From Ideonella oryzae (lineage in GTDB: Bacteria; Pseudomonadota; Gammaproteobacteria; Burkholderiales; Burkholderiaceae_C), in contig NZ_JAMXMC010000012.1 of NCBI RefSeq assembly GCF_024055665.1, forward strand, positions 1-64,000: a DNA stretch of 64,000 nucleotides, given 5' to 3'. Below the pieces are notes generated by a model. The model was not told the origin of the DNA, ran no database searches, and saw nothing but the letters and a program-made list of their open reading frames with translations. Made by a program: the position numbers and the translations under genes. Shown here one piece after another: positions 10,204 through 34,106 of the stretch; position 1 is the stretch's first letter; every line of letters begins with the position of its first letter.

Positions 10204-10218
10204 GGTGTGCGCCTCACG

Positions 10219-14780: not shown

Positions 14781-15103
14781 CCAGGCGGGCACCGCAAGCG
14801 TGCATTTGCTACCTTTTTCACGTGAAGTTGCACCAATAAATCGCTTGCCTCCCGTATGCGTCATCCCCACTCGCCTGCTCCTGGAGTGTTTAACAAGGTG
14901 AATCACATCAATCGCCGTCAATAATTCGGGTGGAATACGGTTTCACAAGAGCATTTTTCGGAGTTAAGCCCAGGTCATTATTTACGTGAATTTGGCACTA
15001 GTTTTGCTGACGAGGATCAAGCCCTGGCGTGCTGAGTCAGCACACCAGGGGCGAACTGCCCGCGGTTCCGCGGGTTTCCCAAGTTCATTGCATGACACCC
15101 TCC
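14781..15103. other. AT-richer leader/promoter region of the porin gene
   Basis: About 320 bp with clearly lower GC than the surroundings (TTTAACAAGGTGAATCACATCAATC, quoted in part, near 14888-14912, and CATTATTTACGTG near 14974). No ORF with coding character was seen. A GTGAATCACATCAA element has one perfect FNR half-site (ATCAA) but a poor second half. Porin genes commonly have long regulated leaders. Confidence 0.45.
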
Positions 15104-17912: not shown

Positions 17913-18686
17913 TCAGGTGGTCAGCAGTTCCTGGTGCTTGGCCTGCGCCCCCAGGTAGGCCTCGATCACGCGCGGGTCGTGGGCCAGCGCGGCGGCCGGC
18001 CCTTCCATGGCCACGCGGCCCAGCTCCAGCACATAGGCGTGGTCGGCCACATGCAGCGCCGCGCGGGCGTTCTGCTCGACCAGCAGGATGGACACGCCCT
18101 GCGCGCGCAACTGCACGATGATGCGGAAGATGTCGCGCACGATCAGCGGTGCCAGGCCCAGGCTGGGCTCATCGAGCATCAGCAGCTGCGGCCGACCCAT
18201 CAGGGCGCGGCCCAGCGCCAGCATCTGGCGCTCACCGCCCGACAGCGTCGCGGCCTCCTGGCGGCGGCGCTCCTGCAGACGCGGGAACAGCGCATAGACC
18301 TCGTCGAGCGCCTGCGCGTGGCGGGCCGCCCCCTCGCCGCGGAAGCGGTAGGCGCCCAGGCGCAGGTTGTCCTCCACCGTCATGCTAGCGAACAACGCCC
18401 GGGTCTCGGGCACCAGGGCCAGGCCTTGTTCAGCCCGGGCCTCCACCTGCAGCGCGCCTTGCACCCGGCCGGCCAGCGTGATGCGGCCGTCGCGCGCGGG
18501 CAGCGCCCCCATCAAGGCCCCCAGCAGCGTGCTCTTGCCCGCGCCGTTGGGGCCGATCACGGTGACGATCTCGCCCTGGCGCACCCGCAGGCTCACGCCG
18601 GAGAGGGCCTCGATCTTGCCGTAGGCCACCGAGAGGTTCTCAACCTCCAGCAGCAGCGGGCGTTCAGAGGCGGTTTCAGCGGTCAT
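17913..18686 (-). CDS. livF: Branched-chain-amino-acid-type ABC transporter ATP-binding protein LivF
   Basis: 257 residues. Walker A GPNGAGKST (about 45-53), signature LSGGERQMLALGRAL (about 148-162) and Walker B LLMLDEPSLGLAP (about 168-180), with the LivF-specific VEQNARAALHVADHAYVLELG. It belongs to the HAAT family, which imports branched-chain amino acids but also many aromatic acids and amides. It is 8 bp downstream of livMG. In this setting an aromatic acid such as indole-3-acetate is a likely cargo, by inference. Confidence 0.9.
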   Translation of the reverse strand: MTAETASERPLLLEVENLSVAYGKIEALSGVSLRVRQGEIVTVIGPNGAGKSTLLGALMGALPARDGRITLAGRVQGALQVEARAEQGLALVPETRALFASMTVEDNLRLGAYRFRGEGAARHAQALDEVYALFPRLQERRRQEAATLSGGERQMLALGRALMGRPQLLMLDEPSLGLAPLIVRDIFRIIVQLRAQGVSILLVEQNARAALHVADHAYVLELGRVAMEGPAAALAHDPRVIEAYLGAQAKHQELLTT

Positions 18687-18694
18687 CTCGGCAC

Positions 18695-20563
18695 TCACAG
18701 GTCGACTCCCAGGTAGGCTTCCAGCACCTTGGGATGGCTTTGCACCTCGGCGGGCAGGCCCTCGGTGATCTTCTCGCCGAACACCATCACCGCCACGCGG
18801 TCCACCAGGTTCATCACGAAATCCATGTCGTGCTCCACCAGCAGCACGGCGATGCCTTCGGCGCGCAGCTTGCGCAGCAGCTCGGCCAGAGCCTGCTTCT
18901 CCTGCAGACGCAGACCGGCGGCGGGCTCGTCGAGCAGCAGCACCGAGGGATCGGCGCACAGCGCACGGGCGATCTCCACCAGACGCTGCTGGCCCAGCGC
19001 CAGGCTGCCAGCCTCCACATGCGACAGCGCGCCCAGGCCCACGCGCTCCAGCTGGCGCTGGGCCTCGCCCAGCAGCCGGGCCTCCTCGGCCCGGTCCAGC
19101 CGCAGCGCGCTGCGCAACAGGCCGGCGCGGCCGCGCAGGTGGGCACCGATGGCCACGTTGTCCAGCACGCTCATGCTGGGCAGCAGCTTGACGTGCTGAA
19201 AAGTGCGCGAGAGCCCGGCGGCGGCCATGCGCCGAGGCTGCCAGCCCAGCACGCTCTGGCCCAGGAACTTCACCTCGCCCGAGGTCGGATGGTCCACGCA
19301 GGAGAGCTGGTTGAACAACGTGCTCTTGCCCGCGCCGTTCGGGCCGATGACGGCCAGAATCTCGCCAGCATGCAGCGTCAGGTCGATGTCCTTGTTGGCC
19401 ACCAGGCCGCCAAAGCGACGGGTCAGACCCCGCACCTCCAGCACCGGCTGGCCGCGGGTGGGCTGGACCCGGCGCGGCAAGGGCGCAGCAGCCGGCAGCG
19501 CTGCGGGCTGAGCCCGCCGCGGATCGACCCGCCGGCTCCAGCGGCGGTGGATGGCACCCCACAGGCCATTGGGCGCGCGGTGCATCAAGGCGATGATCAG
19601 CAGGCCGAAGACGACGGACTCGTAGTTGCCGCTCTGGCCCAGCAGGCTGGGCAGCCAGTCCTGCAGCCCGTTGCGGCCCAGTGTCACCACCACGGCACCC
19701 GCCACCGCACCCCACAGGTGGCCCACGCCGCCGATGAGGGCCATGAACATCACGTCGATGCCCGCGGTCACGCTGAACGGCGCCGGGCTGACGAAGCGCT
19801 GATTGCAGGCATACAGCCAACCCGAAACGCCGGCCAGCAGCGCCGACAGGATGAAGGCCGCCATCTTGGTGCGGAACACCGGCACGCCCATTGATTCGGC
19901 CATCGCCTGGCCGCCGTTGAGCGCGCGCAACGCGCGGCCGCTGCGCGAATCGAGCAGGTGGCGAGAGAGCACCAGGGCCAGCCCCAGCAGCAGCCAGATC
20001 GGCCAGGCCATGTCGGCCGGCTGGTCCAGACTCCAGGCACCGATCTGCAAGGCCGGCAGGTTGGTCAGGCCGGAATGGGCCCCCAGCGATTCCAGCGTGC
20101 CAAACAGGTAGAACAGCGCCAGGGCCCAGCAGATGGTGCCCAGCGGCAGGTAGTGCCCGGACAGCCTCAGCGTCACCGCGCCCAGGCCAGCCGCCACCGC
20201 CAGCGTCACCAGCAGGCCGGCCGGCAGGGCCAGCCAGGGCGAACCAGCGATGGGTGCCAGCCAACCTGGCACGTCCGTCCCGACGGTCAGCCAGGCACAG
20301 GTGTAGGCCCCCAGGCCGATGAAAGCAGCCTGGCCGAAGCTGGTCATGCCGGCCACGCCGGTCAGCAGCACCAGGCCCAGGGTGGCCATGGCCGCCAGGC
20401 CGATGTTGTTGAGCAGGTTGACCCAGAAGGTGGGCAGCCAGGGCACGGCCAGCAACAAGGCCAGCAGCAACACCGGGCCGACCGTGCGCCGGCCCGTGAC
20501 GCCCAGCGAGCGCGCGGACTTGGAGGTCTCAGCAGAGGAATTCATGGGCAGGGCGGTGCTCAT
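18695..20563 (-). CDS. Fused ABC permease LivM and ATPase LivG
   Basis: 622 residues. Residues about 25-335 are a LivM permease with about ten hydrophobic segments (LTGVAGMTSFGQAAFIGLGAY, LLSGVSG-type blocks, IGGVGHLWGAVAG). Residues about 370-622 are LivG: Walker A GPNGAGKST, SRTFQHVKLLPSMSVLDN, SLALGQQRLVEIARALC in place of the classic LSGGQ, Walker B VLLLDEPAAGLR, and VEHDMDFVMNLVDRV. The linker (about 335-370) is Arg/Ala/Pro-rich. LivM-LivG fusions are known in Burkholderiales. It overlaps livH by 4 bp (ATGA). Confidence 0.9.
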   Translation of the reverse strand: MSTALPMNSSAETSKSARSLGVTGRRTVGPVLLLALLLAVPWLPTFWVNLLNNIGLAAMATLGLVLLTGVAGMTSFGQAAFIGLGAYTCAWLTVGTDVPGWLAPIAGSPWLALPAGLLVTLAVAAGLGAVTLRLSGHYLPLGTICWALALFYLFGTLESLGAHSGLTNLPALQIGAWSLDQPADMAWPIWLLLGLALVLSRHLLDSRSGRALRALNGGQAMAESMGVPVFRTKMAAFILSALLAGVSGWLYACNQRFVSPAPFSVTAGIDVMFMALIGGVGHLWGAVAGAVVVTLGRNGLQDWLPSLLGQSGNYESVVFGLLIIALMHRAPNGLWGAIHRRWSRRVDPRRAQPAALPAAAPLPRRVQPTRGQPVLEVRGLTRRFGGLVANKDIDLTLHAGEILAVIGPNGAGKSTLFNQLSCVDHPTSGEVKFLGQSVLGWQPRRMAAAGLSRTFQHVKLLPSMSVLDNVAIGAHLRGRAGLLRSALRLDRAEEARLLGEAQRQLERVGLGALSHVEAGSLALGQQRLVEIARALCADPSVLLLDEPAAGLRLQEKQALAELLRKLRAEGIAVLLVEHDMDFVMNLVDRVAVMVFGEKITEGLPAEVQSHPKVLEAYLGVDL

Positions 20564-21609
20564 GCGCGGTCCTCCTCATGGTGCTTGCTGGTCAGCGAGC
20601 GCCACAGCAGGAAGGGCAGGATCAGGGTGAACACGATGACCTCCTTGTAGGAACTCGCCCAGAAGGTCGAATAGGCCTCGACCAGCCCCACCGACAGTGC
20701 GCCCAGCGCGCCGACGGGGAAGCTGACCAGGCCGCCGACCACGGCCCCGACGAAGCCCTTCAGGCTGATCAGGAAGCCGGAGTCGTAGTACAGCGTGGTG
20801 AGCGGCGCGATCAGCGTGCCCGACAGGCCACCGATGAAAGCCGCCAGGGCAAAGCAGGTGCGGCCGGCAGTGGTCGGCGAGATGCCCATCAGCTGCGCCC
20901 CCAGGCGACTGACCGCGGTGGCCCGCAAGGCCTTGCCGCGCAGCGTGCGCTCGAAGAACACGAACAGCCCGACCATCAGCGCCAGCGTCGCGGCCAGCAC
21001 CCACAGCGACTGGGCGTTGACGTTGAGCAGCCCCAGGTCCAGGCCGTCCTCGGAGAACGGCAGAGTGCGCGCGCCTTCGGCGCCGAACATCCAGAGCGCC
21101 AGCCCCACCAGCACCACATGCAGCGCGATCGAGACGATCAGCAGCACCAGGCCATGCGCAGCCGCAATGGGCCGAAAGCACAGGTCATACAGCCAGGGCC
21201 CCAGCGGCACCACCAGCGCCAGCGTGAACAACACCTGCAGCACCATCGGCCAGTCCTGGCCGGGCACCCGGTAGGCAATGCCCCAGAGGATCAGGGCATA
21301 GAGCGGCCCGGCGAAGTCCCAGGCCGACAGCGGGGGCTGAGGATCGGCGCGCAGGCCCGGGCGCAGCGCCCACAGCCGCCAGACCAGGCGCAGCGCGGCG
21401 AGCACCAGCAGCAGCCAGGCCAGCCGCACCGGCTGGCCGGCTTGCAGCGTGGCCATGGTCATGGCGCCAAAGGTGACAAACTCCCCCTGCGGCACCAGCA
21501 GCACCCGGGTGACGGTGAACACCAGGACGATGGACAGGGCCAGCAGCGCGTAGATCGCGCCGTTGGTCACGCCATCCTGTCCCAGCAGCAATGCGATCTG
21601 CGCGTTCAT
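20560..21609 (-). CDS. livH: Branched-chain-amino-acid-type ABC transporter permease LivH
   Basis: 349 residues, about eight to ten transmembrane helices. QDGVTNGAIYALLALSIVLVFTVTRVLLVPQGEFVTFGAM (residues about 9-50) is the LivH N-terminus, and RLGAQLMGISPTTAGRTCFALAAFIGGLSGTL near 230-262 is the coupling region. It is longer than E. coli LivH because of an internal insertion (about 60-110). It lies 17 bp downstream of the binding-protein gene and overlaps livMG by 4 bp. Confidence 0.9.
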   Translation of the reverse strand: MNAQIALLLGQDGVTNGAIYALLALSIVLVFTVTRVLLVPQGEFVTFGAMTMATLQAGQPVRLAWLLLVLAALRLVWRLWALRPGLRADPQPPLSAWDFAGPLYALILWGIAYRVPGQDWPMVLQVLFTLALVVPLGPWLYDLCFRPIAAAHGLVLLIVSIALHVVLVGLALWMFGAEGARTLPFSEDGLDLGLLNVNAQSLWVLAATLALMVGLFVFFERTLRGKALRATAVSRLGAQLMGISPTTAGRTCFALAAFIGGLSGTLIAPLTTLYYDSGFLISLKGFVGAVVGGLVSFPVGALGALSVGLVEAYSTFWASSYKEVIVFTLILPFLLWRSLTSKHHEEDRA

Positions 21610-21626: not shown

Positions 21627-22781
21627 TCACTTCAGCAGCGTCCAGCGACCGTTCTTCACCACGATCATCTCGCGGCCACGGTCATCGAAGCCGCTGTGGT
21701 CGGCCGGGGTCATGGTGTAGACGCCTTGGGTGGCCGGCAGCTCCTTGATCTGCTCCAGCGCATCGCGCAGCGCCGTGCGGAAGGCGGCGGTGCCCGGCTT
21801 GCCGGACTTCAGCGCCACCGGAATGGCCGCCTGCAGCAGCAGGCCCGCGTCATACACGTTGGCGCCGAAAGTCGCCGGCTTGCTGCCGTTGAGCTTCTCG
21901 TAGGCCTCCACATACTCGGTGGCCACCTTCTTGGTCGGGTTGCTGGCCGGCACCTGGTCGAGCACCAGCATCGCGCTGGCGGCCAGGATCGTGCCTTCCA
22001 CCTTCTTGCCGCCCAGCCGCAGGAAGTCGTCCAGCGCCGCGCCGTGGGTCTGGTAGACCTTGCCCTTGTAGCCCACGTCGTAGAGCGTGGTGCTGGGCAA
22101 GACGGACGAGCTGCCCGGCGCGGCCACCAGGATCGCGTCGGGTGACGCCCCCATCAGCTTGAGGGCCTGGGCGGTCAGCGAGGTGTCCTGGCGCTGGAAG
22201 CGCTCGGAGCCCACCACCTTGATACCCGCCTTCTCGGCCAGCGCGGAGAAGACCCGCACCCAGTTGTCACCGTAGGGGTCGGCCGTGCCGATGAAGCCCA
22301 CCTTCTTGATCTTGGTGGCACTCATGTGCTGCACCAGGGCACGGGCGATGATGTCGTCGTTCTGCGTGGTCTTGAAGACCCACTTCTTCTGCTCGCTCAT
22401 CGGCACGACCACGGCCGCCGTTCCCACCGGCGCCAGCATGGGCACACCGGCTTCTGCGGCGAACTGGATCACGCCCATCGCGGCCGGCGAGCCGCTCGGG
22501 CCGATGATGGCGTCGACCTTGTCTTCGTTGATGAGCTTCTTGAAAGCCGACACCGAAGCCGTCGGGTCGCTCCCATCATCCAGCGAGATGTACTGAACCG
22601 TCTGGCCCGCCACCTTGGTGGGCAGCAGCGGCACGGTCTTCTTCTGCGGCAGGCCGACCAGGGCCACCGGGCCGGTGGACGAGGTCACCACGCCCACCTT
22701 GACCTGGGCTTGCGCGACCAGGGCGAACGAGGCCAGCAGACAGCCCTGCAGCAGGGGACGGACGAAACGGGGAAGGGACAT
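21627..22781 (-). CDS. Periplasmic substrate-binding protein of the HAAT ABC importer
   Basis: 384 residues. Signal peptide (LLQGCLLASFALVAQAQ) then VKVGVVTSSTGPVALVGLPQKK, GSDPTASVSAFKKLINEDKVDAIIGPSGSPAA and VGFIGTADPYGDNW, the Peripla_BP_6 (LivK-like) fold. It is the first gene of the operon, facing the iac operon across 542 bp. Binding proteins of this type next to aromatic catabolic genes usually capture the aromatic substrate; indole-3-acetate or a conjugate is my inference. The ATG at 22779-22781 has GGGGA upstream and starts the signal peptide. Confidence 0.88.
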   Translation of the reverse strand: MSLPRFVRPLLQGCLLASFALVAQAQVKVGVVTSSTGPVALVGLPQKKTVPLLPTKVAGQTVQYISLDDGSDPTASVSAFKKLINEDKVDAIIGPSGSPAAMGVIQFAAEAGVPMLAPVGTAAVVVPMSEQKKWVFKTTQNDDIIARALVQHMSATKIKKVGFIGTADPYGDNWVRVFSALAEKAGIKVVGSERFQRQDTSLTAQALKLMGASPDAILVAAPGSSSVLPSTTLYDVGYKGKVYQTHGAALDDFLRLGGKKVEGTILAASAMLVLDQVPASNPTKKVATEYVEAYEKLNGSKPATFGANVYDAGLLLQAAIPVALKSGKPGTAAFRTALRDALEQIKELPATQGVYTMTPADHSGFDDRGREMIVVKNGRWTLLK

Positions 22782-23223: not shown

Positions 23224-23252
23224 TTGACGATTCACGTATTCACTCCTATCGT
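23224..23252 (+). promoter_or_regulatory. Sigma-70-type promoter for the iac operon
   Basis: TTGACG (23224-23229), exactly 17 bp, then TATCGT (23247-23252). The start of transcription would fall near 23259, giving a leader of about 65 bp to the amidase start codon. The spacer holds a direct repeat ATTCACGT/ATTCACTC, a possible regulator contact. Confidence 0.6.
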
Positions 23253-23323: not shown

Positions 23324-24472
23324 ATGTCCACCGACATCGTCGTTCTCCCGCTCCAAATCGGCCCCGCCGATGGCCCGCGCTTCATGGTCAAAGACACGCT
23401 GGACGTGGCAGGCAGCCCGACGCGGGCCGGCAGCCGCACCTTGACCGACGCCGCGCCCGCCGCAGCCCATGCGGAGGTGGTGGCACGCCTGCTGGCCGCC
23501 GGCTGGCAGTTGATGGGCAAGACCAATCTGCATGAGCTGGCCTATGGCACCACCGGCATCAACCACTGGACCGGCACCCCGCGCAACCCGCGCTGGCCCG
23601 ACCGCGTGCCCGGCGGTTCCTCCTGCGGATCGGCCGTGGCCGTCGCACAAGGCCTGGTGCCGGTGGCCCTGGGCACGGACACCGGCGGCTCGGTGCGCAC
23701 GCCGGCGGCCTGCTGCGGCGTGTTCGGGCTCAAGCCCAGCTTCGGCCGGGTGAGTCGGCGCGGCGTGATGCCCGAGCGCAGTTCGCTGGACTGTGTGGGC
23801 CCGATCGCCCGCGACATGGACAGCCTGATCGCGGCCATGGCGGTGATGACACCGAACTTCCACACCCTGCCGGTGGTGCCGCCCTCGCTGCACATCGGCC
23901 TGGTGGACGTGGCCTGCGACACCCAGGCCCGCGACGCGGTGCACGGGGCCCTGGCGCGCACCCGCCACCGCCTGCACCCGGTCACGCTGCCGCTGTTTGA
24001 GGATGCCTACCGCGCCGGTCTGGCAGTGATCAACCGCGAGAACTGGACCGCCCTGTCCCCACTGCTGGCCGATGGCCGCATGGGCCCCGACGTGGCCACC
24101 CGGCTGCAACGGGCCGGCCAAACCACCGATGCGCAGGTGGCCGAGGCCGAAGCCGTGCGGCGCGCCTTCCGCGCCGAGGTGGATGCCGCCTTGTCGCAGT
24201 GCGACGTGCTGGCCCTGCCCACCCTGGCTTCACCCCCGCCGCGCCTCGAAGACGCCGCCGACACCAGCGCCGCCGTGTCGATGACGGCCCTGGTGCGCCC
24301 CTTCAATCTTTCCGGCCATCCGGCCATCACGCTGCCCCTGGACAACGCCGACGGCCTGCCCGTGGGCCTGCAGCTGGTGGCCCGCCACGGTGCCGACGAA
24401 TGGCTTTGCGCCGTGGCTCGCTCCCTGAGCCATCAACTCGACCTGCACGCCTCCCTTGGAGAACCCGCATGA
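23324..24472 (+). CDS. iacH: Amidase-signature protein IacH
   Basis: 382 residues. The Ser-cisSer-Lys triad region is visible: Lys in MVKDTLD (about 23), GGSSCGSAVAVAQG (about 97-110) and GTDTGGSVRTPAACCGVFG (about 118-136). In described iac operons of Burkholderiales the first gene, iacH, is an amidase of this length; its exact role in indole-3-acetate degradation is uncertain. The first gene of the rightward operon, it overlaps iacA by 4 bp (ATGA). It is shorter than GatA (about 480 residues) and has no GatB/C neighbours. Confidence 0.82.
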   Translation: MSTDIVVLPLQIGPADGPRFMVKDTLDVAGSPTRAGSRTLTDAAPAAAHAEVVARLLAAGWQLMGKTNLHELAYGTTGINHWTGTPRNPRWPDRVPGGSSCGSAVAVAQGLVPVALGTDTGGSVRTPAACCGVFGLKPSFGRVSRRGVMPERSSLDCVGPIARDMDSLIAAMAVMTPNFHTLPVVPPSLHIGLVDVACDTQARDAVHGALARTRHRLHPVTLPLFEDAYRAGLAVINRENWTALSPLLADGRMGPDVATRLQRAGQTTDAQVAEAEAVRRAFRAEVDAALSQCDVLALPTLASPPPRLEDAADTSAAVSMTALVRPFNLSGHPAITLPLDNADGLPVGLQLVARHGADEWLCAVARSLSHQLDLHASLGEPA

Positions 24473-25644
24473 CCTCCCTCACCGCCACGCACCCCGGTGC
24501 GTCCACCGCCCCCACCGGGCTTGAATCCGGCACGGCGCTGGACCTGCTGCTGAGCGACATCCGCCGCCGCCGCCAGGAATTCGAGCAACAGCGCTACATC
24601 TCGCCGGACATCATCCAGCGCTTCAAGGAGATCGGCGTCTACCGCGCCCTGGTGCCCACCGCGCTGGGCGGCGAGCAGAAGTCGGCGCACGAATTCTGCG
24701 AACTCATCGAGACCATCTCGCAGGCCGATGGCTCGGCCGGCTGGGTGGCCAGCTTCGGCATGGGGGTGACTTACCTGGCCGCGTTGCCGTCGGCCACGCT
24801 GACCAAGGTCTATGCCGATGGGCCTGACGTGACCTTTGCCGGCGGCATCTTCCCGCCGCAACGGGCCCCCAAGGTGGACGGCGGCTACGAAGTCTCAGGG
24901 CGCTGGAGCTTCTCCAGCGGCTGCATGGGCGCCGACGTGATCGGCGTGGGCATCGCCCCGTTCGAAGGCGACAAGGGCGGCCTGCCGCGCATGGCCGTGA
25001 TGCCGCGCAGCCAGGCCCGCATCGAGATGGCCTGGGACGTCAGCGGCCTGGCCGGCACCGGCAGCCACGACCTGGTGGTCGACAAGGTGATCGTGCCCGA
25101 GGAATGGACCTTCGTGCGCGGCAGCAAGTCGCAGCGCGAGGAGCCGATGTTCCGCTATCCCTCGCTGTCCTTCGCCGCCCAGGTGCTCACGGTGGTAGGC
25201 CTGGGCATCGCCCGCGCCGCCATCGACGAGCTGCGTGGCATGGCCACCGGCCGCATTTCGGTCACGGGCGCACCGCGCCTGGCCGACCGGCCGCAGGTGC
25301 AGATCGAAATCGCCCGCGCCGAGGCCCAGCTGCGTGCCGCCCGCGCCTTCTTCTACGAGGCCATCGACGACGCCTGGGCCACGCTCGAGAAGGGCGACGA
25401 GGTGACGCCGGAGCAGACCAGCCTGCTGCGCCTGTCCTCCACCCACGCGGCCCGCACCAGCGCCGAAGTGACCCGCGCCATCCAGATGCAGGCCGGCATG
25501 AGCGGCGTCTACCACAGCAGCCCGCTGTCGCAGCAGGTGCGCGACGTGCAGGTGCTGACCCAGCACGCCTTCATGGGCGACATCACCTACCAGAACGCGG
25601 GCGCGATGCTGTTCGGCCTGCCCCCGCTGCCGGGCTACCTCTGA
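24469..25644 (+). CDS. iacA: Flavin-dependent indole-3-acetate monooxygenase IacA
   Basis: 391 residues with an acyl-CoA dehydrogenase-like fold of the two-component hydroxylase type: FKEIGVYRALVPTALGG, ISQADGSAGWVASFGMGV, GGYEVSGRWSFSSGC, WDVSGLAGTGSHDLVVDKVIVP (in pieces) and a C-terminal TQHAFMGDITYQNAG. It lacks features of a CoA substrate pocket. In the iac pathway IacA hydroxylates indole-3-acetate with reduced flavin supplied by IacG. The ATG at 24469 overlaps the iacH stop, so the two are coupled. Confidence 0.85.
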   Translation: MTSLTATHPGASTAPTGLESGTALDLLLSDIRRRRQEFEQQRYISPDIIQRFKEIGVYRALVPTALGGEQKSAHEFCELIETISQADGSAGWVASFGMGVTYLAALPSATLTKVYADGPDVTFAGGIFPPQRAPKVDGGYEVSGRWSFSSGCMGADVIGVGIAPFEGDKGGLPRMAVMPRSQARIEMAWDVSGLAGTGSHDLVVDKVIVPEEWTFVRGSKSQREEPMFRYPSLSFAAQVLTVVGLGIARAAIDELRGMATGRISVTGAPRLADRPQVQIEIARAEAQLRAARAFFYEAIDDAWATLEKGDEVTPEQTSLLRLSSTHAARTSAEVTRAIQMQAGMSGVYHSSPLSQQVRDVQVLTQHAFMGDITYQNAGAMLFGLPPLPGYL

Positions 25645-25682
25645 GCAAACGCCCCCTCTTTTGCTGACCTGAAAGGACTTCC

Positions 25683-26063
25683 ATGAGCACCCCCACCCCC
25701 CAGATGCGCGCGCTGTTCTGCATCGGCATCAACCAGAACTTCTTCGATGCCCCCCCCGATGAGGCCAAGGCTGTGTGGCTGGCCTGCGGCGAACTCTTCA
25801 ATGGCATCGCCGAGCTGCCCGGCGTGACCGTGCTGGGCAACATCGACGACGACCTGTCCATGGTCGGTCCGTCGACCAGCTGGCCCTGGACCTGCTACAT
25901 CTTGGCCAACGTGCCCGACATCCAGACCGTGCACGCGGCCTGCAACCTGCTGCGCACTGTCGTGGTCGGCGAGGGCCCGTACAAGCTGTGGAAGTACGCC
26001 AAGATCGAGGCCCGCGTCGGCCGCGAGCTGGTGGTGCCGCCCAGCCTGAAGAAGCCGGCCTGA
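25683..26063 (+). CDS. iacB: IacB, small protein of the indole-3-acetate cluster
   Basis: 126 residues, soluble and without signal peptide. Motifs seen: ALFCIGINQNFFD, ELPGVTVLGNIDDDLSMVGPS, WPWTCYILANVPD and a conserved-looking GEGPYKLWKYAKIEARVGREL. The size, the dimeric-barrel-like mix of strands and the position between iacA and iacI match IacB, whose biochemical role is not settled. It begins 38 bp after iacA, with AAAGGACTTCC as ribosome binding site. Confidence 0.75.
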   Translation: MSTPTPQMRALFCIGINQNFFDAPPDEAKAVWLACGELFNGIAELPGVTVLGNIDDDLSMVGPSTSWPWTCYILANVPDIQTVHAACNLLRTVVVGEGPYKLWKYAKIEARVGRELVVPPSLKKPA

Positions 26064-26077
26064 GCACGGAGCCCGCT

Positions 26078-26662
26078 GTGACCCCTGCTCCCCTCCCCGT
26101 CGAGCTGGCCGGCCTGGCCCAGCGGCTGGTCGAACTGGAAGACCGCCTGGAGCGCTTCGAGGACGCCGCCGCCATCCGCGCCTGCGTGCACCGCTACATG
26201 GCCTTGTGCGACCGGCTCGACGCCACGACCCCGATGGACGCCCTGCTGGACTGCTTCACCGAGGACGCCATCTGGGCCGGCAAGGGGGCCCGCTACGGTG
26301 AGAGCTTCGGGGGTCACCGCGGCCGCGCCGCCATCGGCGCCATGCTCGGCGCCTACCGCGGTTCGCTGCCCGGCGAGGATGGCCCGCAGCGTCCGCCGCA
26401 CTTCGCCTTCAACGCCCACTTCCTCTGCTCGGAGCTCATCACCCCCACCGGCGCCGACACCGCCCGCGCCGAGTGGACCATGCTGCAGACCTCCACCTTC
26501 GCCGACGGCCGCGCCCACCTCAACGCCGCGCAGCTCACGCTGCAGATGCGCCGCGACACCGACGGCCACTGGCGCATCGCCCACTTCGAGACCGAGAACC
26601 TGCTCAGCCGCCCCGTGGACCACTGGCACAGCGACACCGCCCTGCCCGTGCCCCGGCGCTGA
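26078..26662 (+). CDS. iacI: IacI, SnoaL-like protein
   Basis: 194 residues from GTG at 26078 (CGGAG upstream), 14 bp after iacB. The N-terminus is a coiled helix (LAQRLVELEDRLERFED), followed by the SnoaL/NTF2 fold: AIRACVHRYMALCDRLDA, DCFTEDAIWAG, RGRAAIGAMLG and HWRIAHFETENLLSRP. IacI in known clusters has this fold and acts on an oxidised indole intermediate. No upstream ATG exists in frame close enough, so GTG is favoured. Confidence 0.78.
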   Translation: MTPAPLPVELAGLAQRLVELEDRLERFEDAAAIRACVHRYMALCDRLDATTPMDALLDCFTEDAIWAGKGARYGESFGGHRGRAAIGAMLGAYRGSLPGEDGPQRPPHFAFNAHFLCSELITPTGADTARAEWTMLQTSTFADGRAHLNAAQLTLQMRRDTDGHWRIAHFETENLLSRPVDHWHSDTALPVPRR

Positions 26663-26700
26663 GCCCGGCCCCCTTTCAACCCCTTCATTGCATCGCCACC

Positions 26701-27987
26701 ATGAACGCTCCTGCTTCCACCATGCAATTTCAGCGCTCCGCGCGCGAACTGGGCGAGCTCGTCCGCGAGGACCGCGTCCACACCTCGCTCTACAACGACC
26801 CGGCCATCTTCGACCAGGAGATGGACAAGATCTTCCGCAACTGCTGGGTCTGGGTCGCCCACGAGAGCGAACTGCCCGAGCCCGGCAGCTTCAAGACCCA
26901 CTGGGTCGGCATGGAGCCGGTGATCGTGGTGCGCGACCGCAAGAACGCCATCCACGTGCTGCTCAACCGCTGCCGCCACCGCGCCGCCACCGTCTGCGAG
27001 CACAAGAAGGGCAAGACCTCCAGCTTCGTCTGCCCCTACCACGGCTGGGCCTACGCCCTGGACGGCTCGCTGCGCGGCGTGCCCTTCCCCGAGAGCTACG
27101 GCGACTGCCTGGACAAGGGCGAGTTCCCGCTGGTGAGCCTGCGCGTGGAAACCTACAACGGCATGGTCTTCGCCACCTTCCGCGACGACATCGCCCCGCT
27201 GGTGGACTGGCTGGGCCCGGCCAAGAAGTGGATCGACCTGTTCATGAAGCAGGCCGGCGGCTACCCGGTCAAGGTGGCCGGCGAGCACCGCTTCCGCTTC
27301 CCCGGCAACTGGAAGATCCAGCTGGAGAACACCACCGACGCCTACCACTTCCCGCTGGTGCACAAGAGCTTCCTGAGCTCGATCGACGAAGAGACCAAGC
27401 AGGTCTTCGACTTCGTCAAGGGCCCGGGCTATGTGGAGGAACTGGGCAACGGCCACAGCGTGATGGTGATGATCCCGTCCCTGGTGGATCTGGAGGCCAA
27501 CCTGGACGCGCCGATCCCCGAGCGCTTCGAGGAGCTGGCCCAGGCCCTGCGTGACGAGGGCCATGACGAGCAGAAGGTCCGCCGCCTGGTGCGCGCTGTC
27601 GGCGGCACGGGCTTCAACCTGAACCTGTTCCCCAACATCGCCTGCTCGATGGCCTTCTTCCGCGTGCTGCAGCCGGTCTCGGTGACCGAGACCGAGATCC
27701 ACCATGCGGCCATCGTGATGGACGGCGGCCCGGCCGTGTGCAACCAGGCCCGGCTGCGCCTGCACGAGCACTTCCAGGGCCCGATGGGCTTCGGCACGCC
27801 CGATGACTCGGAGGCCTGGGAGCGCGTGCAAAAGGGTGCGCAGGCCGGCAAGGACCTGTGGGTCATGGTCAACCGCGGCCTGCCCGGCGAGCGCGTGACC
27901 GAGGACGGCCACGCCAGCGATGTCAGTGCCGAGACCGGCATGCGCGCCGCCTACCGCCAGTGGAAGAAGCTGATGACCGCCGAGTGA
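26701..27987 (+). CDS. iacC: Rieske dioxygenase large subunit IacC
   Basis: 428 residues. The Rieske 2Fe-2S site is Cys91-x-His93 (NRCRHRAATVC) and Cys111-x2-His114 (VCPYHGWAY). The mononuclear iron site is formed by His216 and His221 with Asp213 nearby (ENTTDAYHFPLVH). This is the alpha subunit of the ring-hydroxylating oxygenase in the iac pathway, taking electrons from IacF and pairing with IacD. It starts 38 bp after iacI. Confidence 0.88.
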   Translation: MNAPASTMQFQRSARELGELVREDRVHTSLYNDPAIFDQEMDKIFRNCWVWVAHESELPEPGSFKTHWVGMEPVIVVRDRKNAIHVLLNRCRHRAATVCEHKKGKTSSFVCPYHGWAYALDGSLRGVPFPESYGDCLDKGEFPLVSLRVETYNGMVFATFRDDIAPLVDWLGPAKKWIDLFMKQAGGYPVKVAGEHRFRFPGNWKIQLENTTDAYHFPLVHKSFLSSIDEETKQVFDFVKGPGYVEELGNGHSVMVMIPSLVDLEANLDAPIPERFEELAQALRDEGHDEQKVRRLVRAVGGTGFNLNLFPNIACSMAFFRVLQPVSVTETEIHHAAIVMDGGPAVCNQARLRLHEHFQGPMGFGTPDDSEAWERVQKGAQAGKDLWVMVNRGLPGERVTEDGHASDVSAETGMRAAYRQWKKLMTAE

Positions 27988-28039
27988 GGGCCCTGCCCAC
28001 CGACCGTCCCCCTCCCATCGCAACCCAATTCCTCACACC

Positions 28040-28516
28040 ATGAACCTGCCCCTGCTGAACAGCGTCACCGCTTTTGTCTGGGCCGAGGCCGACATGCTCG
28101 ACCACGGCGAATTCGCCGCCTGGCTGGACCTGTGGGTCCCCGCCGGCCAGTACATCGTGCCCATCGACCCGGACACCACCGACTTCGACAACACCCTCAA
28201 CTACGCCAACGACAACGCCACCATGCGCCGCCTGCGCGTGGAGCGCCTGACCAGCGGCGAGTCGGTCTCCACCCAGCCGCCCGCGCGCACCGTGCGCAGC
28301 GTCTCGCGCCTGCGCGTCATCGCGCATGACGGCGACACCGTCACCCTGCGCGGCGCCCAGGACCTGCGTGACTTCCGCAAGGACAAGTTCCACCAGCACA
28401 CCGCCGACGTCACCTGGACCCTGGTCGCCCACGGCGACTCCTGGCGCATCCAGCGCAAGGTCGTGCGCATGATCAACTCCGTCGACACGCTCAGCGCCGT
28501 CGGCTACATCTTCTGA
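28040..28516 (+). CDS. iacD: Rieske dioxygenase small subunit IacD
   Basis: 158 residues of the Ring_hydroxyl_B family: FVWAEADMLDHGEFAAWLDLW, YIVPIDPDT, NDNATMRRLRVERLTSG, and SWRIQRKVVRMINSVD towards the end. It forms the structural beta subunit with IacC. It begins 52 bp downstream of iacC in the same direction. Confidence 0.87.
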   Translation: MNLPLLNSVTAFVWAEADMLDHGEFAAWLDLWVPAGQYIVPIDPDTTDFDNTLNYANDNATMRRLRVERLTSGESVSTQPPARTVRSVSRLRVIAHDGDTVTLRGAQDLRDFRKDKFHQHTADVTWTLVAHGDSWRIQRKVVRMINSVDTLSAVGYIF

Positions 28517-28530
28517 AGGCCCGCACCACC

Positions 28531-29289
28531 ATGACGCGCTTGCCTTCCGAGATGCCCATTGCCATGGTCACCGGCGCGGCCGCCGGGCTGGGTCAGGTCA
28601 TTGCCGGCGAACTGCATGCTGCGGGCTACCGCGTGCTGCTCACCGATGTGGATGCGGCCGGGGCCCAGGCCGCCGCCCAGGCCCTGGACGCCAGCGGCAC
28701 CGCGGCCCAGGGCCTGGCCCTGAACGTGCTGAACAAGGCCGACTTCGAGGCCGCGCTGGCCCACCTGAAGGCCGGCTGGGGCCTGCCCCAGGTGCTGGTG
28801 AACAACGCCGCGCTGACGCTGACCACCCCGGTCATGCAGATCAGCCCGGAGGAGTTCTCCCGCGTGCTGGACATCAACCTGCGCGGCTGCTTCCTGGGCT
28901 GCCAGGTGTTCGGCGCGGCGATGGGCGAGGCCGGTTACGGCCGCATCGTCAACCTGGCCTCGCTGGCCGGACAAAACGGTGGCACGGCCTCGGGCGCGCA
29001 TTACGCCTCGTCCAAGGCCGGCATCCTGACGCTGACCAAGATCTTCGCCCGCGAGCTGGGCGCCAAGGGCGTCACCGTCAACGCGGTGGCCCCGGGGCCG
29101 ATGGACCTGCCCTCGGTGCATGCCGCAGTGCCGGCCGACCGCCTGGCGCAGATCGTCAAGACCATCCCGGTGCAGCGCCTGGGCAACCCGTTGTTCGTCG
29201 CCCGCATGGTGGTGCTGCTGGCCTCGGCCGAGGCCGATTTCGCCACCGGCGCCGCCTGGGACTTCAACGGCGGCATCTTCATGCGCTGA
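28531..29289 (+). CDS. iacE: Short-chain dehydrogenase IacE
   Basis: 252 residues. The Rossmann motif TGAAAGLGQ (about 11-19), NNAALT at about 90, and the catalytic Ser/Tyr/Lys in NLASLAGQNGG and YASSKAGI (Tyr and Lys of YxxxK near 153-157) define a classical SDR. In the iac pathway IacE acts on the hydroxylated indole-3-acetate product. The C-terminus (GAAWDFNGGIFMR) is typical of family members. It starts 14 bp after iacD. Confidence 0.86.
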   Translation: MTRLPSEMPIAMVTGAAAGLGQVIAGELHAAGYRVLLTDVDAAGAQAAAQALDASGTAAQGLALNVLNKADFEAALAHLKAGWGLPQVLVNNAALTLTTPVMQISPEEFSRVLDINLRGCFLGCQVFGAAMGEAGYGRIVNLASLAGQNGGTASGAHYASSKAGILTLTKIFARELGAKGVTVNAVAPGPMDLPSVHAAVPADRLAQIVKTIPVQRLGNPLFVARMVVLLASAEADFATGAAWDFNGGIFMR

Positions 29290-29342
29290 GCCTCCCCGGC
29301 CCACGCTGCTGCCTTTTCACCCCTGCCCCACGAGCCCTGCCC

Positions 29343-30344
29343 ATGAGCACTGCCACCCTCTCATCCCCCACCGCCGCCACGCTGGACGTGGTGGTGCGCG
29401 ACCGCAGCCTGCAAGGTCAGGCCGTGGCCGTGCTGGCCCTGGCCGCTGCCGATGGCAGCGCCCTGCCCGCCTTCACCGCCGGTGCCCATGTGGACCTGCA
29501 CCTGCCCGGCGGGCTGGTGCGGCCCTATTCGCTGTGCAGCGACCCGGCCGACACCCAGACCTACCGTCTGGGCGTGCTCAAGGACCCCGCCTCGCGCGGC
29601 GGCTCGGTGGCCGTGCACGCTGCCCTGCAGGCCGGCGCCCGCCTGACCATCAGCGCCCCGCGCAACCACTTCCCGCTCGACGAGAGCGCGCCGCACAGCG
29701 TGCTGGTGGGCGGCGGCATCGGCATCACGCCCATGCTGGCCATGGCCCATCGCCTGCATGCCCTGGGAGCCTCCTTCGAGCTGCATTACTGCGCCCGCAG
29801 CCGGGCCCAGGCCGCCTTTCTCGACGAGCTGGCCCAGGCCCCCTGGGCCGGGCGCGTCACGCTGCACTTCGACGAGGCCGAGGAGCCTGGTGGGGCCGGC
29901 AAGCTGGCGCCCGCTGCGGTGCTGAAGGCCGCCCCGGCCGGCAGCCACCTGTATGTCTGCGGCCCGGCGGGTTTCATGGACTGGGTGATGGCCGAGGCCG
30001 CCGGCGCCGGCCTGGCCGCGGCGCAGATCCACCGCGAGTACTTCAGCGCCCCGGTGGTCGCTTCCGACAGCCCGGACCGGGCCTTCGACGTGGTGGCCCA
30101 GCGCAGCGGCAAGACCGTTCACGTGGCGCCCACCGAGAGCCTGCTGAGTGCCCTTCAGCGCATCGGCATCGAGGTGCCCGTCTCCTGCGAGCAGGGCGTC
30201 TGCGGCACCTGTGCCTGCACCGTGCTCGAAGGCGAGCCCGACCACCGCGACGCCTACCTCACCGACGAGGAGCGCGCCGCCAACGACCAGATCATGGTGT
30301 GCTGCTCGCGCTCGCGTTCGGCCCGCCTGGTGCTGGACCTCTGA
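29343..30344 (+). CDS. iacF: Ferredoxin-NAD(P)H oxidoreductase component IacF
   Basis: 333 residues. An N-terminal FAD domain (RPYSLCSDP, about 60) and NAD domain (VLVGGGIGITPMLAMAH, about 121-137; YVCGPAGFMDWV, about 204) are followed by a C-terminal plant-type 2Fe-2S ferredoxin with Cys near 282, 287, 290 and 320 (CEQGVCGTCACTV). This is the vanillate-demethylase-reductase layout that feeds the Rieske oxygenase IacCD. Confidence 0.88.
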   Translation: MSTATLSSPTAATLDVVVRDRSLQGQAVAVLALAAADGSALPAFTAGAHVDLHLPGGLVRPYSLCSDPADTQTYRLGVLKDPASRGGSVAVHAALQAGARLTISAPRNHFPLDESAPHSVLVGGGIGITPMLAMAHRLHALGASFELHYCARSRAQAAFLDELAQAPWAGRVTLHFDEAEEPGGAGKLAPAAVLKAAPAGSHLYVCGPAGFMDWVMAEAAGAGLAAAQIHREYFSAPVVASDSPDRAFDVVAQRSGKTVHVAPTESLLSALQRIGIEVPVSCEQGVCGTCACTVLEGEPDHRDAYLTDEERAANDQIMVCCSRSRSARLVLDL

Positions 30345-30364
30345 CCCCCTCGCCCGGAGCTTCC

Positions 30365-30895
30365 ATGGACGCGAGCGCCCCCTCTGTCTCTTCGCCGGTT
30401 TCGGTCGGCGAGTTCCGCAACGGCATGGCCCTGCTGCCCGGTGCCGTCACCGTCATCACCACCGATGGCCCCGAGGGTCCGGCGGGCTTCACCGCCTCGG
30501 CCGTCTGCAGCGTCACCGACAGCCCGCCCACCGTGCTGGTGTGCATGAACCGCTCGTCGTTTGCGCACCGCTTCTTCGCCACCAATGGCGTGCTGTGCGT
30601 GAACGTGCTGAATGCGACGCAGCAGGATGTCTCCGGCCTGTTCGCCAACCGCGAGGTGGCGATGGCCGAGCGCTTTGCGCGCTGCCCGGCCCGCCCCCTG
30701 GCCACCGGCGCCCCGGCGCTGGACGGTGCGCTGGTGAACCTGGACGGCCGCATCGTCGCCACCCACGAGGTGGGCACGCACAGCGTGTTCATCGTCGAGC
30801 TGCAAAGCATCCAGGTGCCCGACGGGGCGAGCGCCCTGCCGGGCCTGGCCTACTTCAACCGCGGCTACCACGCCCTCGGTCAAGCCGCTGCCTGA
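30365..30895 (+). CDS. iacG: Flavin reductase IacG
   Basis: 176 residues of the Flavin_Reduct family: FRNGMALLPGAVTVITTDG, GFTASAVCSVTDSPPTVLVCMN, FCVNVL-type block LCVNVLNATQQDVSGLFA and GLAYFNRGYHAL at the end. It supplies reduced flavin to IacA. The ATG at 30365 follows GGAGCTTCC, and the longer open frame upstream overlaps iacF and is rejected. It is the last of the described iac genes, but three further genes follow at short gaps. Confidence 0.86.
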   Translation: MDASAPSVSSPVSVGEFRNGMALLPGAVTVITTDGPEGPAGFTASAVCSVTDSPPTVLVCMNRSSFAHRFFATNGVLCVNVLNATQQDVSGLFANREVAMAERFARCPARPLATGAPALDGALVNLDGRIVATHEVGTHSVFIVELQSIQVPDGASALPGLAYFNRGYHALGQAAA

Positions 30896-30910: not shown

Positions 30911-31954
30911 ATGCCTTCCCCTTCTTCCGACTTTCCCGCCCGGCCCCGCATCCTGGTGGCCGGCGCCGGGGCCATTGGCTGCACGCTGGCCACCCGCCTG
31001 GCGGCAGCCGGCCACACCGTGAGCCTGCTGGCCCGCGGCCACACCTTGCAGACTGTGCGCGAACAGGGCCTGCGGCTGGACGACCTGAGCGGCCGCACCG
31101 AGGTGCGCGTGCCCGTCGCCAGCCGGGCCGCGGACCTCGGCCCGCAGGACCTGGTCTTTCTGTGCAGCAAGGCCCAGGACCTGCCCGCGCTGAGCGCGCA
31201 GGTGCTGCCGGTCCTGGCGCCCGGCGCCCTGATCATTCCGCTGGTCAACGGCGTGCCCTTCTGGTACTTCCACCGCAGCGGCCAGCGCTTCGAGGGCCAG
31301 CCCGTCCAGGCCGTGGACCCGGACGGCCAGTTGCTGCGGCAGCTGCCGATGGACCGGGTGCTGGGCGCGGTGGTCTTCGTCACCGCCGAGTCGCCCGCGC
31401 CGGGCTGGTGTGTCTCACGCACCCCGCACCTGATCATGCTGGGGGAACTGGGCGGCGGTCTGGCACCGCGGCTGCAGGCGGTCTGCCAGCTGCTGAACAG
31501 CGCCGGCATCGAAGGCCGGTCGCTGGAGCGCATCCGCGACAAGCTCTGGACCAAGCTGATCGCCAACCTCACCTCCAATCCGCTGTCGGTCGTCACCGGC
31601 GCCACGCTGGAAGAGATCTACACCCGCGACTCGCTGCTGCACACCGTGCGCGCGGTGATGCACGAGGTGATGCTGGCGGCCAGCGCCTATGGCGCGCGGC
31701 TGGAGATCGACCCCATCGAGTTCATCCAGCTGGGCGCGGCGATGGGCCCGGTGCGGACCTCCATGCTGCAGGACCTGGAGCGCGGCCGCCCGCTGGAACT
31801 GGCCGCCATTGGCGACGCGATGGTGGAGCTGGGCGCGCGCTACGGCCTGCCCATGCCCGCCACCCGGGCCCTGATCGACCTGGCGCGCTGGCGCCAACCC
31901 CGTCTCCAGGCCGAGGCGCCCCGGCCTCAGGCTGCTTCCCCTGTCGCGGCCTGA
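30911..31954 (+). CDS. Ketopantoate reductase (PanE/ApbA)-family protein
   Basis: 347 residues. The Rossmann motif VAGAGAIGCTLATRLAAAGH (about 17-36), FLCSKAQD, PLVNGVPFWY and the C-terminal helical domain with DKLWTKLIANLTSNPLS (the PanE catalytic Lys region) are visible. True PanE makes pantoate, but many homologues in catabolic operons reduce other 2-oxo acids. Here it follows iacG by 15 bp and precedes a class II aldolase, so a role in processing an auxin-derived or side-chain product is more likely than vitamin synthesis. The substrate is unknown. Confidence 0.78.
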   Translation: MPSPSSDFPARPRILVAGAGAIGCTLATRLAAAGHTVSLLARGHTLQTVREQGLRLDDLSGRTEVRVPVASRAADLGPQDLVFLCSKAQDLPALSAQVLPVLAPGALIIPLVNGVPFWYFHRSGQRFEGQPVQAVDPDGQLLRQLPMDRVLGAVVFVTAESPAPGWCVSRTPHLIMLGELGGGLAPRLQAVCQLLNSAGIEGRSLERIRDKLWTKLIANLTSNPLSVVTGATLEEIYTRDSLLHTVRAVMHEVMLAASAYGARLEIDPIEFIQLGAAMGPVRTSMLQDLERGRPLELAAIGDAMVELGARYGLPMPATRALIDLARWRQPRLQAEAPRPQAASPVAA

Positions 31955-31991: not shown

Positions 31992-32756
31992 ATGGACCTC
32001 ACCCCCAACGCCGCCGAACTGAAGCCCGCCCACATCAGCGATGCCGAATGGGCCCTGCGCGTGCAGCTGGCTCACTGCTACCACCTGGTCGACTTCTTCG
32101 GCTGGACCGAGACCATCTTCAACCACATCTCGGCCCGCCTGCCCGGCACCGACCACTACCTGGTCAACCCCTTCGGCCTGAACTACGACGAGGTCACGCC
32201 GGCCAACCTGCTCAAGGTGGACATCGATGGCCACAAGATCGAGCCCTCGCCCTACGACGCCAACCCGGCCGGCTTCGCGCTGCACGGCGCCATCCACGGT
32301 GCCCGCGAGGACATCCACTGCCTGATCCACACCCACACCACGCCGATCTCGGCCATCGCGATGAAGCGGGCCGGCTTCAGCCACGACGACTTCTACGGCG
32401 CCCAGCTCTATGGCCGCGTGGGCTACCACACCTTCGAAGGCATCACGCTGTTCGCCGACGAGAAGCCGCGCATGCTGGCCAGCCTGGGCGAGAAGCACAT
32501 CCTGGTGCTGCGCAACCACGGCATCGCCGTGGGCGAGATGGACATTCCGCGCGCCTTCTTCCTGCTGTGGACGGTGCAGCGCGCCGCCGAGATCCAGGTG
32601 GCCGCCGGCAGCATCCCGGGTGACAACGTGGCGCTGCCGGACGCCATCGGCGAACGCTGCGCCCACCTGACGGCCGAGCTGATCCGCGACAGCGGCTTCG
32701 CAGAGAAGTTCTTCAACGCCATGGTGCGCCAGATGCACGCCAAGCGCGCCCACTGA
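31992..32756 (+). CDS. Class II aldolase/adducin-family protein
   Basis: 254 residues with the zinc aldolase fold: HISARLPG near 45-52, LHGAIHGAREDIHCLIHTHT (about 97-116, the His-x-His metal pair) and VLRNHGIAVGE (third metal His, about 177). This family includes fuculose-phosphate aldolase, ribulose-phosphate epimerase-like enzymes and decarboxylases, and the sequence does not show phosphate-binding specificity. It sits 37 bp after the PanE-like gene and 24 bp before an amidase, in one directional run with the iac genes. Confidence 0.8.
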   Translation: MDLTPNAAELKPAHISDAEWALRVQLAHCYHLVDFFGWTETIFNHISARLPGTDHYLVNPFGLNYDEVTPANLLKVDIDGHKIEPSPYDANPAGFALHGAIHGAREDIHCLIHTHTTPISAIAMKRAGFSHDDFYGAQLYGRVGYHTFEGITLFADEKPRMLASLGEKHILVLRNHGIAVGEMDIPRAFFLLWTVQRAAEIQVAAGSIPGDNVALPDAIGERCAHLTAELIRDSGFAEKFFNAMVRQMHAKRAH

Positions 32757-32780: not shown

Positions 32781-34106
32781 ATGACCCAGGACACTTCCCG
32801 CCTGCCGCCGCATGTGGCCGACGCCCATTGCCGCAGCGCCTGCGACACCCGCGAGCAGATCAGCCAGGGACGGCTCACGCCCGGCCAGGCGGTGCAGGAC
32901 TGCATCGCCCGCGTGCAGCAGCATGAGCCGGCCGTCCGGGCCTGGCAATCGTTCGACCCCGCGGTGGCCCTGGCCCAGGCCGCCCACCCGGCCAGCGACC
33001 TGCTGCACGGCATCGCCATCGGCCTGAAGGACCTGATCGACACCCGCGCCTGGCCCACCGGCTATGGCTCGCCGATCTATGAAGGCCACCAGCCCGACCG
33101 TGACGGCTGGGTGGTGCGTGCGGTGCAGGCCCAGGGCGGCGTGCCGCTGGGCAAGCTGGTCACAACAGAATTCGGCTACTTCCAGCCCGGCCCCACGGCC
33201 AACCCCTGGGACACGGCCCGCACGCCCGGTGGCTCCTCCAGCGGCTCGGCCGCGGCGGTGGCCGCCGGCATGGTGCCGCTGGCCTTCGGCACCCAGACCG
33301 CCGGCTCGCTGATCCGGCCGGCCTCCTACTGCGGCGTCTGGGCCCTCAAGGCCACCTTCGGGCGCTACCCGCTCGATGGCATCAAAGGGCTGTCGCATTC
33401 GCTCGACACGCTGGGCTGGATGGCCCGCAGCGCCAACGACCTGGAACTGCTGCGCGCCGCGCTGGACCAGGAGGACTTCGCCCCCCTGCCCGCACTGGCT
33501 GCCCCGCGCCTGCTCTTCAGCGCCACCCATCTGGCCCCGATGCTGGATGCCGGCGGTGCTGCCGCCTGGGCCGAAGGCCTGCAGCGACTGGGCCAGGCCG
33601 GCATCCCGCTGGAAGACGCCGCGCTGCCCCCGCTGCTGGCCGCGCTGTTTGAGGCCCAGAAGACCATCATGGCCTGGGAGGCCACCCGCAGCCTGGCCCC
33701 TGAACTGGCGGCGCACCGTGACCGGATGGGCGCCGCGCTGGTGCAGCTGCTGGAACACGGCCAGACCGTGACCCAGACCGCTTACGACGACGCCCAGGCC
33801 CTGGCCCGCCAGGGCCGCAGCTGGCTGGCCGGCCGCCTGCAGGGGGCGGACGCCCTGCTGGTGCCCGCCGCCCCGGGCGAAGCCCCGCTGGGCCTGGCGG
33901 CCACCGGCGACCCGGCCTTCAGCCGCGTTTGGAACCTGCTGGGCAACCCCTGCGTCAACGTGCCCGGCCTGTTCGGCCCGAACCACATGCCCATTGGCCT
34001 GCAGCTGGTGGGCCACCCGCAGCGCGAACGCGACCTGCTGGCCGTGGCCAAGCGGGTGGGTGAGGTGCTGGCACTCAGGCCGTGGCCAGTTTGCCCAGCA
34101 GGGTGA
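32781..34106 (+). CDS. Second amidase-signature protein
   Basis: 441 residues. [18 protein letters not shown] contains the catalytic Lys (about 77). [27 protein letters not shown] (about 150-176) contains the cis-Ser and nucleophile Ser, and [15 protein letters not shown] completes the signature. It differs clearly from IacH (longer, different active-site surround). In the auxin setting, hydrolysis of indole-3-acetamide or of an auxin conjugate is an attractive possibility, but unproven. Its 3' end overlaps the convergent FIST chemoreceptor gene by 32 bp. Confidence 0.82.

Follow-up and report, generated by a model that had tools for sequence, protein, structure and literature searches.

A probable iac-type indole-3-acetate catabolic island in Ideonella oryzae

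Results

The nine-gene core

A 64,000-nt stretch of an Ideonella oryzae contig (the window), from a genome assembled in 31 contigs, was analysed for a putative operon for degradation of the auxin indole-3-acetate (IAA). Nine intact genes, iacH, A, B, I, C, D, E, F and G, occupied positions 23324-30895 of the + strand in the order given in a preliminary description of this DNA. The first gene, iacH (23324-24472), encodes an amidase-signature hydrolase of 382 aa (Pfam Amidase, 266 bits) and overlaps by 4 bp with iacA (24469-25644), which encodes a 391-aa flavin monooxygenase of the acyl-CoA dehydrogenase fold (Acyl-CoA_dh_2). They are followed by iacB (25683-26063), coding for a small protein of 126 aa homologous to IacB of an Acinetobacter plasmid, and by iacI (26078-26662, GTG start chosen), coding for a SnoaL-like protein of 194 aa (SnoaL_4) that is conserved at iac loci. 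The alpha subunit of a Rieske dioxygenase (428 aa; Rieske and Ring_hydroxyl_A) and the beta subunit (158 aa; Ring_hydroxyl_B) are encoded by iacC (26701-27987) and iacD (28040-28516). The remaining genes code for a short-chain dehydrogenase/reductase (SDR) of 252 aa (iacE, 28531-29289; adh_short_C2), a ferredoxin reductase of 333 aa (iacF, 29343-30344; Fer2 and NAD_binding_1) and a short flavin reductase of 176 aa (iacG, 30365-30895; Flavin_Reduct). The widest gap was 53 bp, in keeping with the earlier statement that all genes overlap or lie within 55 bp of each other.

The product types assigned previously were also borne out, as the Pfam families matched each Iac protein with the exception of IacB, for which profile searches gave neither a Pfam nor an NCBIfam family. 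IacB matched 28 plasmid records in a tblastn search, those of Acinetobacter at 74-76% identity, and 4 of 20 listed plasmid records carried the annotation "IacB protein" (one Acinetobacter, one Psychrobacter and two Klebsiella). Its predicted structure had a ferredoxin-like fold (predicted local distance difference test score, pLDDT, 86). Inspection of the sequences by eye showed intact copies of what we take to be the catalytic motifs of IacH (Lys and GGSSCGS/GGSVR) and, presumably, the characteristic motifs of IacC (CxH/CxxH and DxYHxxxH). Identities to the proteins of named iac loci were 45-68% for IacH (at loci having iacH), 55-78% for IacA and 65-92% for IacC.

According to the available part of PMC9613470, an iac locus is recognised by the markers iacA, iacB and iacI together with adjacent iacC and iacD. 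All three markers were present in the window, and the iacC and iacD homologues were adjacent. Assignment to another aromatic system was also tested, and the iac identity was not refuted: homologues of IacB and IacI were present, and the Rieske protein and the monooxygenase stayed below the cut-offs of foreign models. The alpha subunit scored 206 bits against the NCBIfam model HcaE (cut-off 830), 193 against BenA (781) and 185 against anthranilate dioxygenase (672), while IacA scored 169 bits against HsaA (450). For the amidase and the SDR every NCBIfam model among the best 25 was below its cut-off.

Gene order and distribution

Named genomes were scanned for iac loci. The best 80 of 539 relatives were kept, a sample biased toward close kin, and 79 loci were examined after exclusion of L085, which was too short. 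Some absences at these loci reflect contig ends or the 10-kb flank limit, chiefly in Acinetobacter, where the stretch ends within importer genes. The order HABICDEF(G) was found at 52 loci, ABICDEFG without an adjacent iacH at 7, the order of Pseudomonas putida 1290 at 11, and partial or different arrangements at 9. Because 52 of the 79 related loci retain the order HABICDEF(G), a chance arrangement can be excluded. The closest loci among the best 80 included those of Sphaerotilus, Azohydromonas, Pelomonas, Curvibacter and Ideonella livida, with IacB identities of 74-80%. Two distinct iac loci occurred on the same contig of Curvibacter sp. HBC28 (L029 and L077), one with iacH and the other with a second type of amidase.

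The order had been described as that of a known auxin operon of the Burkholderiales. The match to a known operon holds for Acinetobacter and Enterobacter soli, but the order is not specific to the Burkholderiales, in which one Caballeronia and one Cupriavidus locus are rearranged (57-59% IacC identity). The sequences indicate that the Burkholderiales hold at least two iac lineages, because the Caballeronia locus is rearranged and only 52% identical in IacB and 57% in IacC; the window belongs to the lineage resembling that of Acinetobacter and Pseudomonas. IacB was present in 3 of 60 genomes of a set of relatives (the genome itself, G003, which is of the same genus, and G013) and in 2 of 369 genomes of a class-wide sample (the genome itself and G423); the trait is patchily distributed.

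Regulator and upstream site

A gene for a MarR regulator of 184 aa was located on the - strand (16227-16781). Its best match in the PDB was 7kua (E 2e-53), with 86 of 149 aligned residues identical (58%); according to the available text of PMC9613470, 7KUA is the crystallised IacR of P. putida 1290. Tyr44, with which IacR of P. putida contacts IAA, is conserved if a 24-residue tag in 7KUA is assumed. The MarR protein is likely an auxin switch of the IacR type. The MarR proteins of Acinetobacter, where seen, were distant (27-38%).

A promoter- or operator-like site was found on the + strand at 23224-23252, 93 bp upstream of iacH. It consists of TTGACG, a 17-bp spacer containing TTCACGTA (23231-23238) and TATCGT. 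The 8-mer TTCACGTA was common to 12 of 13 divergent upstream regions, which were hand-picked and include a nearly identical pair (the window and L018); in 200 Markov shuffles no 8-mer occurred in more than 7. Upstream of the first iac gene the exact 8-mer was present at 45 of 75 loci, and TTGAC-N(1-4)-TCACGTA at 42. The 8-mer was absent from all 21 Acinetobacter loci examined. The sole other copy in the 64 kb lies on the reverse strand at 14983-14990, ahead of a porin gene.

The divergent gene row

The row of genes on the - strand begins with the four genes of an ATP-binding cassette (ABC) importer. They code for a periplasmic binding protein (21627-22781; start shifted from 22919 to the Met of the signal peptide), a permease (20560-21609; BPD_transp_2), a permease-ATPase fusion (18695-20563; BPD_transp_2 and ABC_tran) and a second ATPase (17913-18698; ABC_tran). 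Among the 60 relatives, homologues of the binding protein with 81-98% identity occurred only in the other two IacB-positive genomes, and the next best match was 53%. Its best PDB matches were 3sg0 (E 4e-100) and 4dqd, followed by a group with Rhodopseudomonas palustris CouP (4jb0, E 1e-82). The available part of PMC3610893 gives phenylpropenoid acids as the ligands of CouP, the first crystal of which contained 4-hydroxyphenylpyruvate. Of the residues that bind the carboxylate in CouP, Arg197 is kept (R243), and Thr102 and Ser222 correspond to Ser144 and Pro268; Gln305 and His309, which bind the 4-hydroxyl group, are replaced by Thr350 and Asn354. An aromatic acid without a para-hydroxyl group, such as IAA, would fit this protein.

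The same strand carries a gene for a TauD/TfdA-like dioxygenase (16863-17852; TauD, 116 bits), which has a 62% homologue in the cluster of Acinetobacter sp. NCu2D-2. A porin gene (15029-16162, + strand; Porin_4), with the second copy of the conserved site upstream, is a possible target of IacR; no porin was seen at the close named loci. Further away, another - strand row (7319-11776) encodes an ABC ATPase and permease, a luciferase-like monooxygenase, an NMT1-type binding protein and a flavin mononucleotide (FMN) reductase; we take it to resemble a sulfonate-utilisation (ssu-like) cluster.

Genes downstream of iacG

The end of the operon had been placed at 30895, which proved premature. Behind iacG come three further genes of the + strand, at intervals of 15, 37 and 24 bp, so that by spacing the operon extends to 34106. 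They code for a ketopantoate-reductase-like protein of 347 aa (30911-31954; NF005089, 294 bits, cut-off 223), a class II aldolase/adducin protein of 254 aa (31992-32756; NF005451, 271 bits, cut-off 207) and a second amidase of 441 aa (32781-34106; Amidase). In the 60 relatives, homologues of the reductase (64-95%) and the aldolase (83-99%) were found only in the other two IacB-positive genomes; the next best matches were 40% to 42% for the reductase and, for the aldolase, 51% over the full length and 53% for one shorter piece.

The second amidase was found at five other named loci, each without iacH. At identity thresholds of 42% and 45%, with copies beyond the 10-kb flank escaping the count, iacH alone was present at 65 of the 79 loci, the second amidase alone at 5, neither at 9 (several cut by contig ends) and both at none. 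At the 60 loci with full flanks these numbers were 57, 3, 0 and 0. The window and G013, which is nearly its twin, had both amidases. The second amidase may replace IacH; the IacH of Marinomonas, at 28.6% identity to that of P. putida, is described as unusual in the available part of PMC11373566. The second amidase gene and a gene for a methyl-accepting protein with FIST_N and FIST_C domains (34075-36000, - strand) overlap at their 3' ends. A chemotaxis gene also lies beside iac in P. putida 1290 (PMC6624763).

Across the 79 loci, the binding protein was accompanied by both reductase and aldolase at 24, by the aldolase at 1 and by the reductase at 1; it occurred alone at 17, and none of the three was seen at 36. 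Reductase or aldolase without the importer was not found within these 79 loci, and the importer without the pair in view was found at L053, L077, L080, L084, L087 and L101 at least. A cation efflux gene (36147-37139) served as a bystander and was independent of iac: it was 94-95% identical in two IacB-negative genomes and 83% in the IacB-positive G013, and had no match at E 1e-60 in the IacB-positive G003. The reductase-aldolase pair is an accessory element that usually accompanies the importer. As Table 1 of PMC11373566, in the part available, lists the pair as not found for P. putida 1290, it is not generally essential for the use of IAA.

Comparison with known iac systems

Other bacteria are already known to carry the nine-gene core. 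The order iacHABICDEFG has been published for E. soli LF7 and for A. lactucae/A. baumannii ATCC 19606, and according to the available parts of these accounts Acinetobacter and E. soli LF7 share with the window the nine genes, their order and a MarR regulator. The plasmid of Acinetobacter sp. NCu2D-2 has exactly the same nine-gene order, and its cluster also includes genes for an importer, a reductase, an aldolase and a TauD protein that correspond in kind to those of the window. The Acinetobacter proteins are each about 43-80% identical to those of the window, but IacG is a longer reductase with a poor match or none (957-bp gene in NCu2D-2). Unlike in the window, cat genes for the ortho route adjoin iac in NCu2D-2 (as annotated) and in E. 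soli (in the accessible part of the source).

The iac loci of Sphaerotilus, Azohydromonas, Curvibacter and Ideonella livida share with the window the order of the core genes and an ABC importer encoded by four genes. Reductase and aldolase genes lie behind iacG, as in the window, in L022, L023, L024, L026, L028 and L029, and all of these except L024 have IacR. In L023 and L024 the second amidase is present and iacH is not, and the other four have iacH with no second amidase in view, whereas the window has both; TauD and the porin, present in the window, were not in view at any of the six. For Curvibacter SE9, IAA degradation and IAA-induced transcription have been reported; the arrangement of the Curvibacter genes was called similar to that of Acinetobacter, and horizontal transfer was suggested (available part of PMC11630574). 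No Ideonella iac operon was named in the titles of the literature matches listed.

P. putida 1290 has the same nine kinds of proteins, but its order is iacABCDEFG-R-HI and its catechol is degraded by the beta-ketoadipate route (PMC6624763); unlike in the window, reductase and aldolase were reported as not found. Marinomonas NFXS50 and MWYL1 resemble the window in having, next to iacR, genes for a class II aldolase, a 2-dehydropantoate reductase and branched-chain ABC proteins, but differ in gene order and in their atypical IacH, and TauD is absent from the table in the available part of PMC11373566. The iac proteins of Caballeronia sp. M1242 are homologous, but besides its rearrangement and low identities the locus includes a gene for a tautomerase and has a gene of the EthD family close by.

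Fate of catechol and other sites of the pair

Profile searches of the genome contigs gave no intradiol dioxygenase (PF04444 and PF00775). A catechol 2,3-dioxygenase was found on contig C1 (L116, 10389-11570) with 441.9 bits (cut-off 320.2), and the same 19.9-kb stretch encodes a hydroxymuconic semialdehyde dehydrogenase (896 bits) and a 4-hydroxy-2-oxovalerate aldolase (569 bits), both above their cut-offs. Because an extradiol enzyme was present and an intradiol one undetected, catechol from auxin probably enters meta cleavage. This predicted route differs from the ortho route described for P. putida 1290 (PMC6624763) and, in the available texts, for Marinomonas (PMC11373566), E. soli and P. 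xenovorans LB400.

Ten non-iac sites with both reductase and aldolase families as neighbours were picked by eye from the match tables of the relatives. At six of them, hpa genes lay in the stretch. The pair was located between HpaH and HpaI in L117, L118, L119 and L123, which all belong to the genus of the window and are not independent; it was directly behind HpaH and HpaI in L125 and three genes off in L120. In L118, HpaE, D, H and I were above their cut-offs and HpaF below. As other contexts included TauD genes, an IlvD-like dehydratase and a beta-oxidation gene, the pair is not confined to arylacetates. Only the Marinomonas paper (PMC11373566) surfaced as literature tying the pair to auxin, and its available part calls the genes "of unknown function". 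The accessible text of PMC12718150, on the hpa context, does not mention "pantoate" or "adducin", and that of PMC8383072 does not mention "aldolase" or "pantoate".

Discussion

The region is very probably an iac-type catabolic island for IAA, and I. oryzae would accordingly be predicted, from its genes, to degrade this hormone. The porin and the ABC importer of the branched-chain type would admit IAA to the cell. It would then bind the MarR protein IacR and free the site inside the promoter between the divergent gene rows. IacA, with flavin supplied by IacG, would hydroxylate IAA at C2, and IacE would yield dioxindole-3-acetate, steps that others have shown for homologues. An amidase, IacI/IacB and the IacCD dioxygenase with IacF would then give catechol; a requirement for iacC and the involvement of iacCDF in reaching catechol have been reported by others. 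The route from dioxindole-3-acetate to catechol was left unresolved in the available parts of PMC7225977 (2020) and PMC9613470 (2022). On chemical grounds, hydrolysis of the lactam could give 2-(2-aminophenyl)malate, dihydroxylation by analogy with anthranilate dioxygenase would be followed by loss of ammonia, and a retro-aldol reaction could release oxaloacetate. The catechol would be split by the catechol 2,3-dioxygenase of the genome.

The pair might form a two-step unit of arylacetate catabolism, with one version belonging to iac loci that nearly always bear the importer and others lying within or next to 4-hydroxyphenylacetate (hpa) operons. It would either feed in imported aryl-2-oxo or 2-hydroxy acids or, on the way from dioxindole-3-acetate to catechol, serve in releasing the four-carbon side chain by a retro-aldol reaction. 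We regard this proposal as tentative and rather doubtful.

Several observations weigh against parts of this interpretation. Pro268 at the position of CouP Ser222 shows that the pocket of the binding protein is not simply conserved, and TauD was in view at only 1 of the 79 named loci (L070). The shared 8-mer is partly expected from common descent, which the shuffles ignore, so that its significance is overstated, and the exact sequence was absent from nine non-Acinetobacter loci (L024, L053, L063, L066, L067, L068, L077, L082 and L083). L020 (from G423, outside the 79 loci) has a reductase (43%) and an aldolase (73%) beside iac with no importer match in 19.9 kb. The assembly is fragmented into 31 contigs. 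According to the available text of PMC7225977, IacB of C. glathei was not needed up to dioxindole-3-acetate, and IacB and IacI in E. coli did not turn this compound over. Curvibacter is listed in the available part of PMC11630574 among the IAA-degrading strains that grow extremely slowly on IAA.

A homologous operon could serve another indole or aryl acid, such as indole-3-propionate, indole-3-lactate or an auxin conjugate, with IAA as a side substrate. IacA and IacE of C. glathei also convert indole-3-propionic and -butyric acids (PMC7225977, available part), the cluster has an additional amidase as well as proteins resembling TauD dioxygenases and keto-acid reductases, the pair was reported as not found for P. 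putida 1290, and CouP, to which the binding protein is related, has phenylpropenoid acids and 4-hydroxyphenylpyruvate as ligands. However, the regulator is closest to the IAA-binding IacR, and the core as a whole matches loci from genera that include proven degraders of IAA; we consider this explanation unlikely.

The two remaining alternatives were rejected as extremely improbable. An auxin operon of the iad type (Variovorax), which produces anthranilate, would suit a host of the Burkholderiales, as Variovorax and Achromobacter carry iad loci according to the available literature, and one IOR_beta-like stretch was present on another contig. That stretch, in a 1270-codon frame on contig C31, reached only 68.3 of the 205.8 bits required, and at the locus itself iorB, the one iad marker of iorB and iotA that the search covered, had no match. 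Synthesis of IAA by the cluster, with the amidases as indoleacetamide hydrolases, would agree with the match of both to the model of that enzyme, but the scores of 214 and 193.5 bits were far under the cut-off of 532, and such a role leaves the dioxygenase, IacA and IacR without purpose.

An iac-type island for IAA catabolism would probably bring an Ideonella into the group of auxin degraders that are not of the Paraburkholderia type. The unit exceeds the usual nine genes, and many relatives also have the importer, the regulator, the promoter site and the two accessory enzymes alongside it. The reductase-aldolase pair and the likely connection with meta cleavage provide concrete candidates for studying how auxin enters these cells and what becomes of its side chain.

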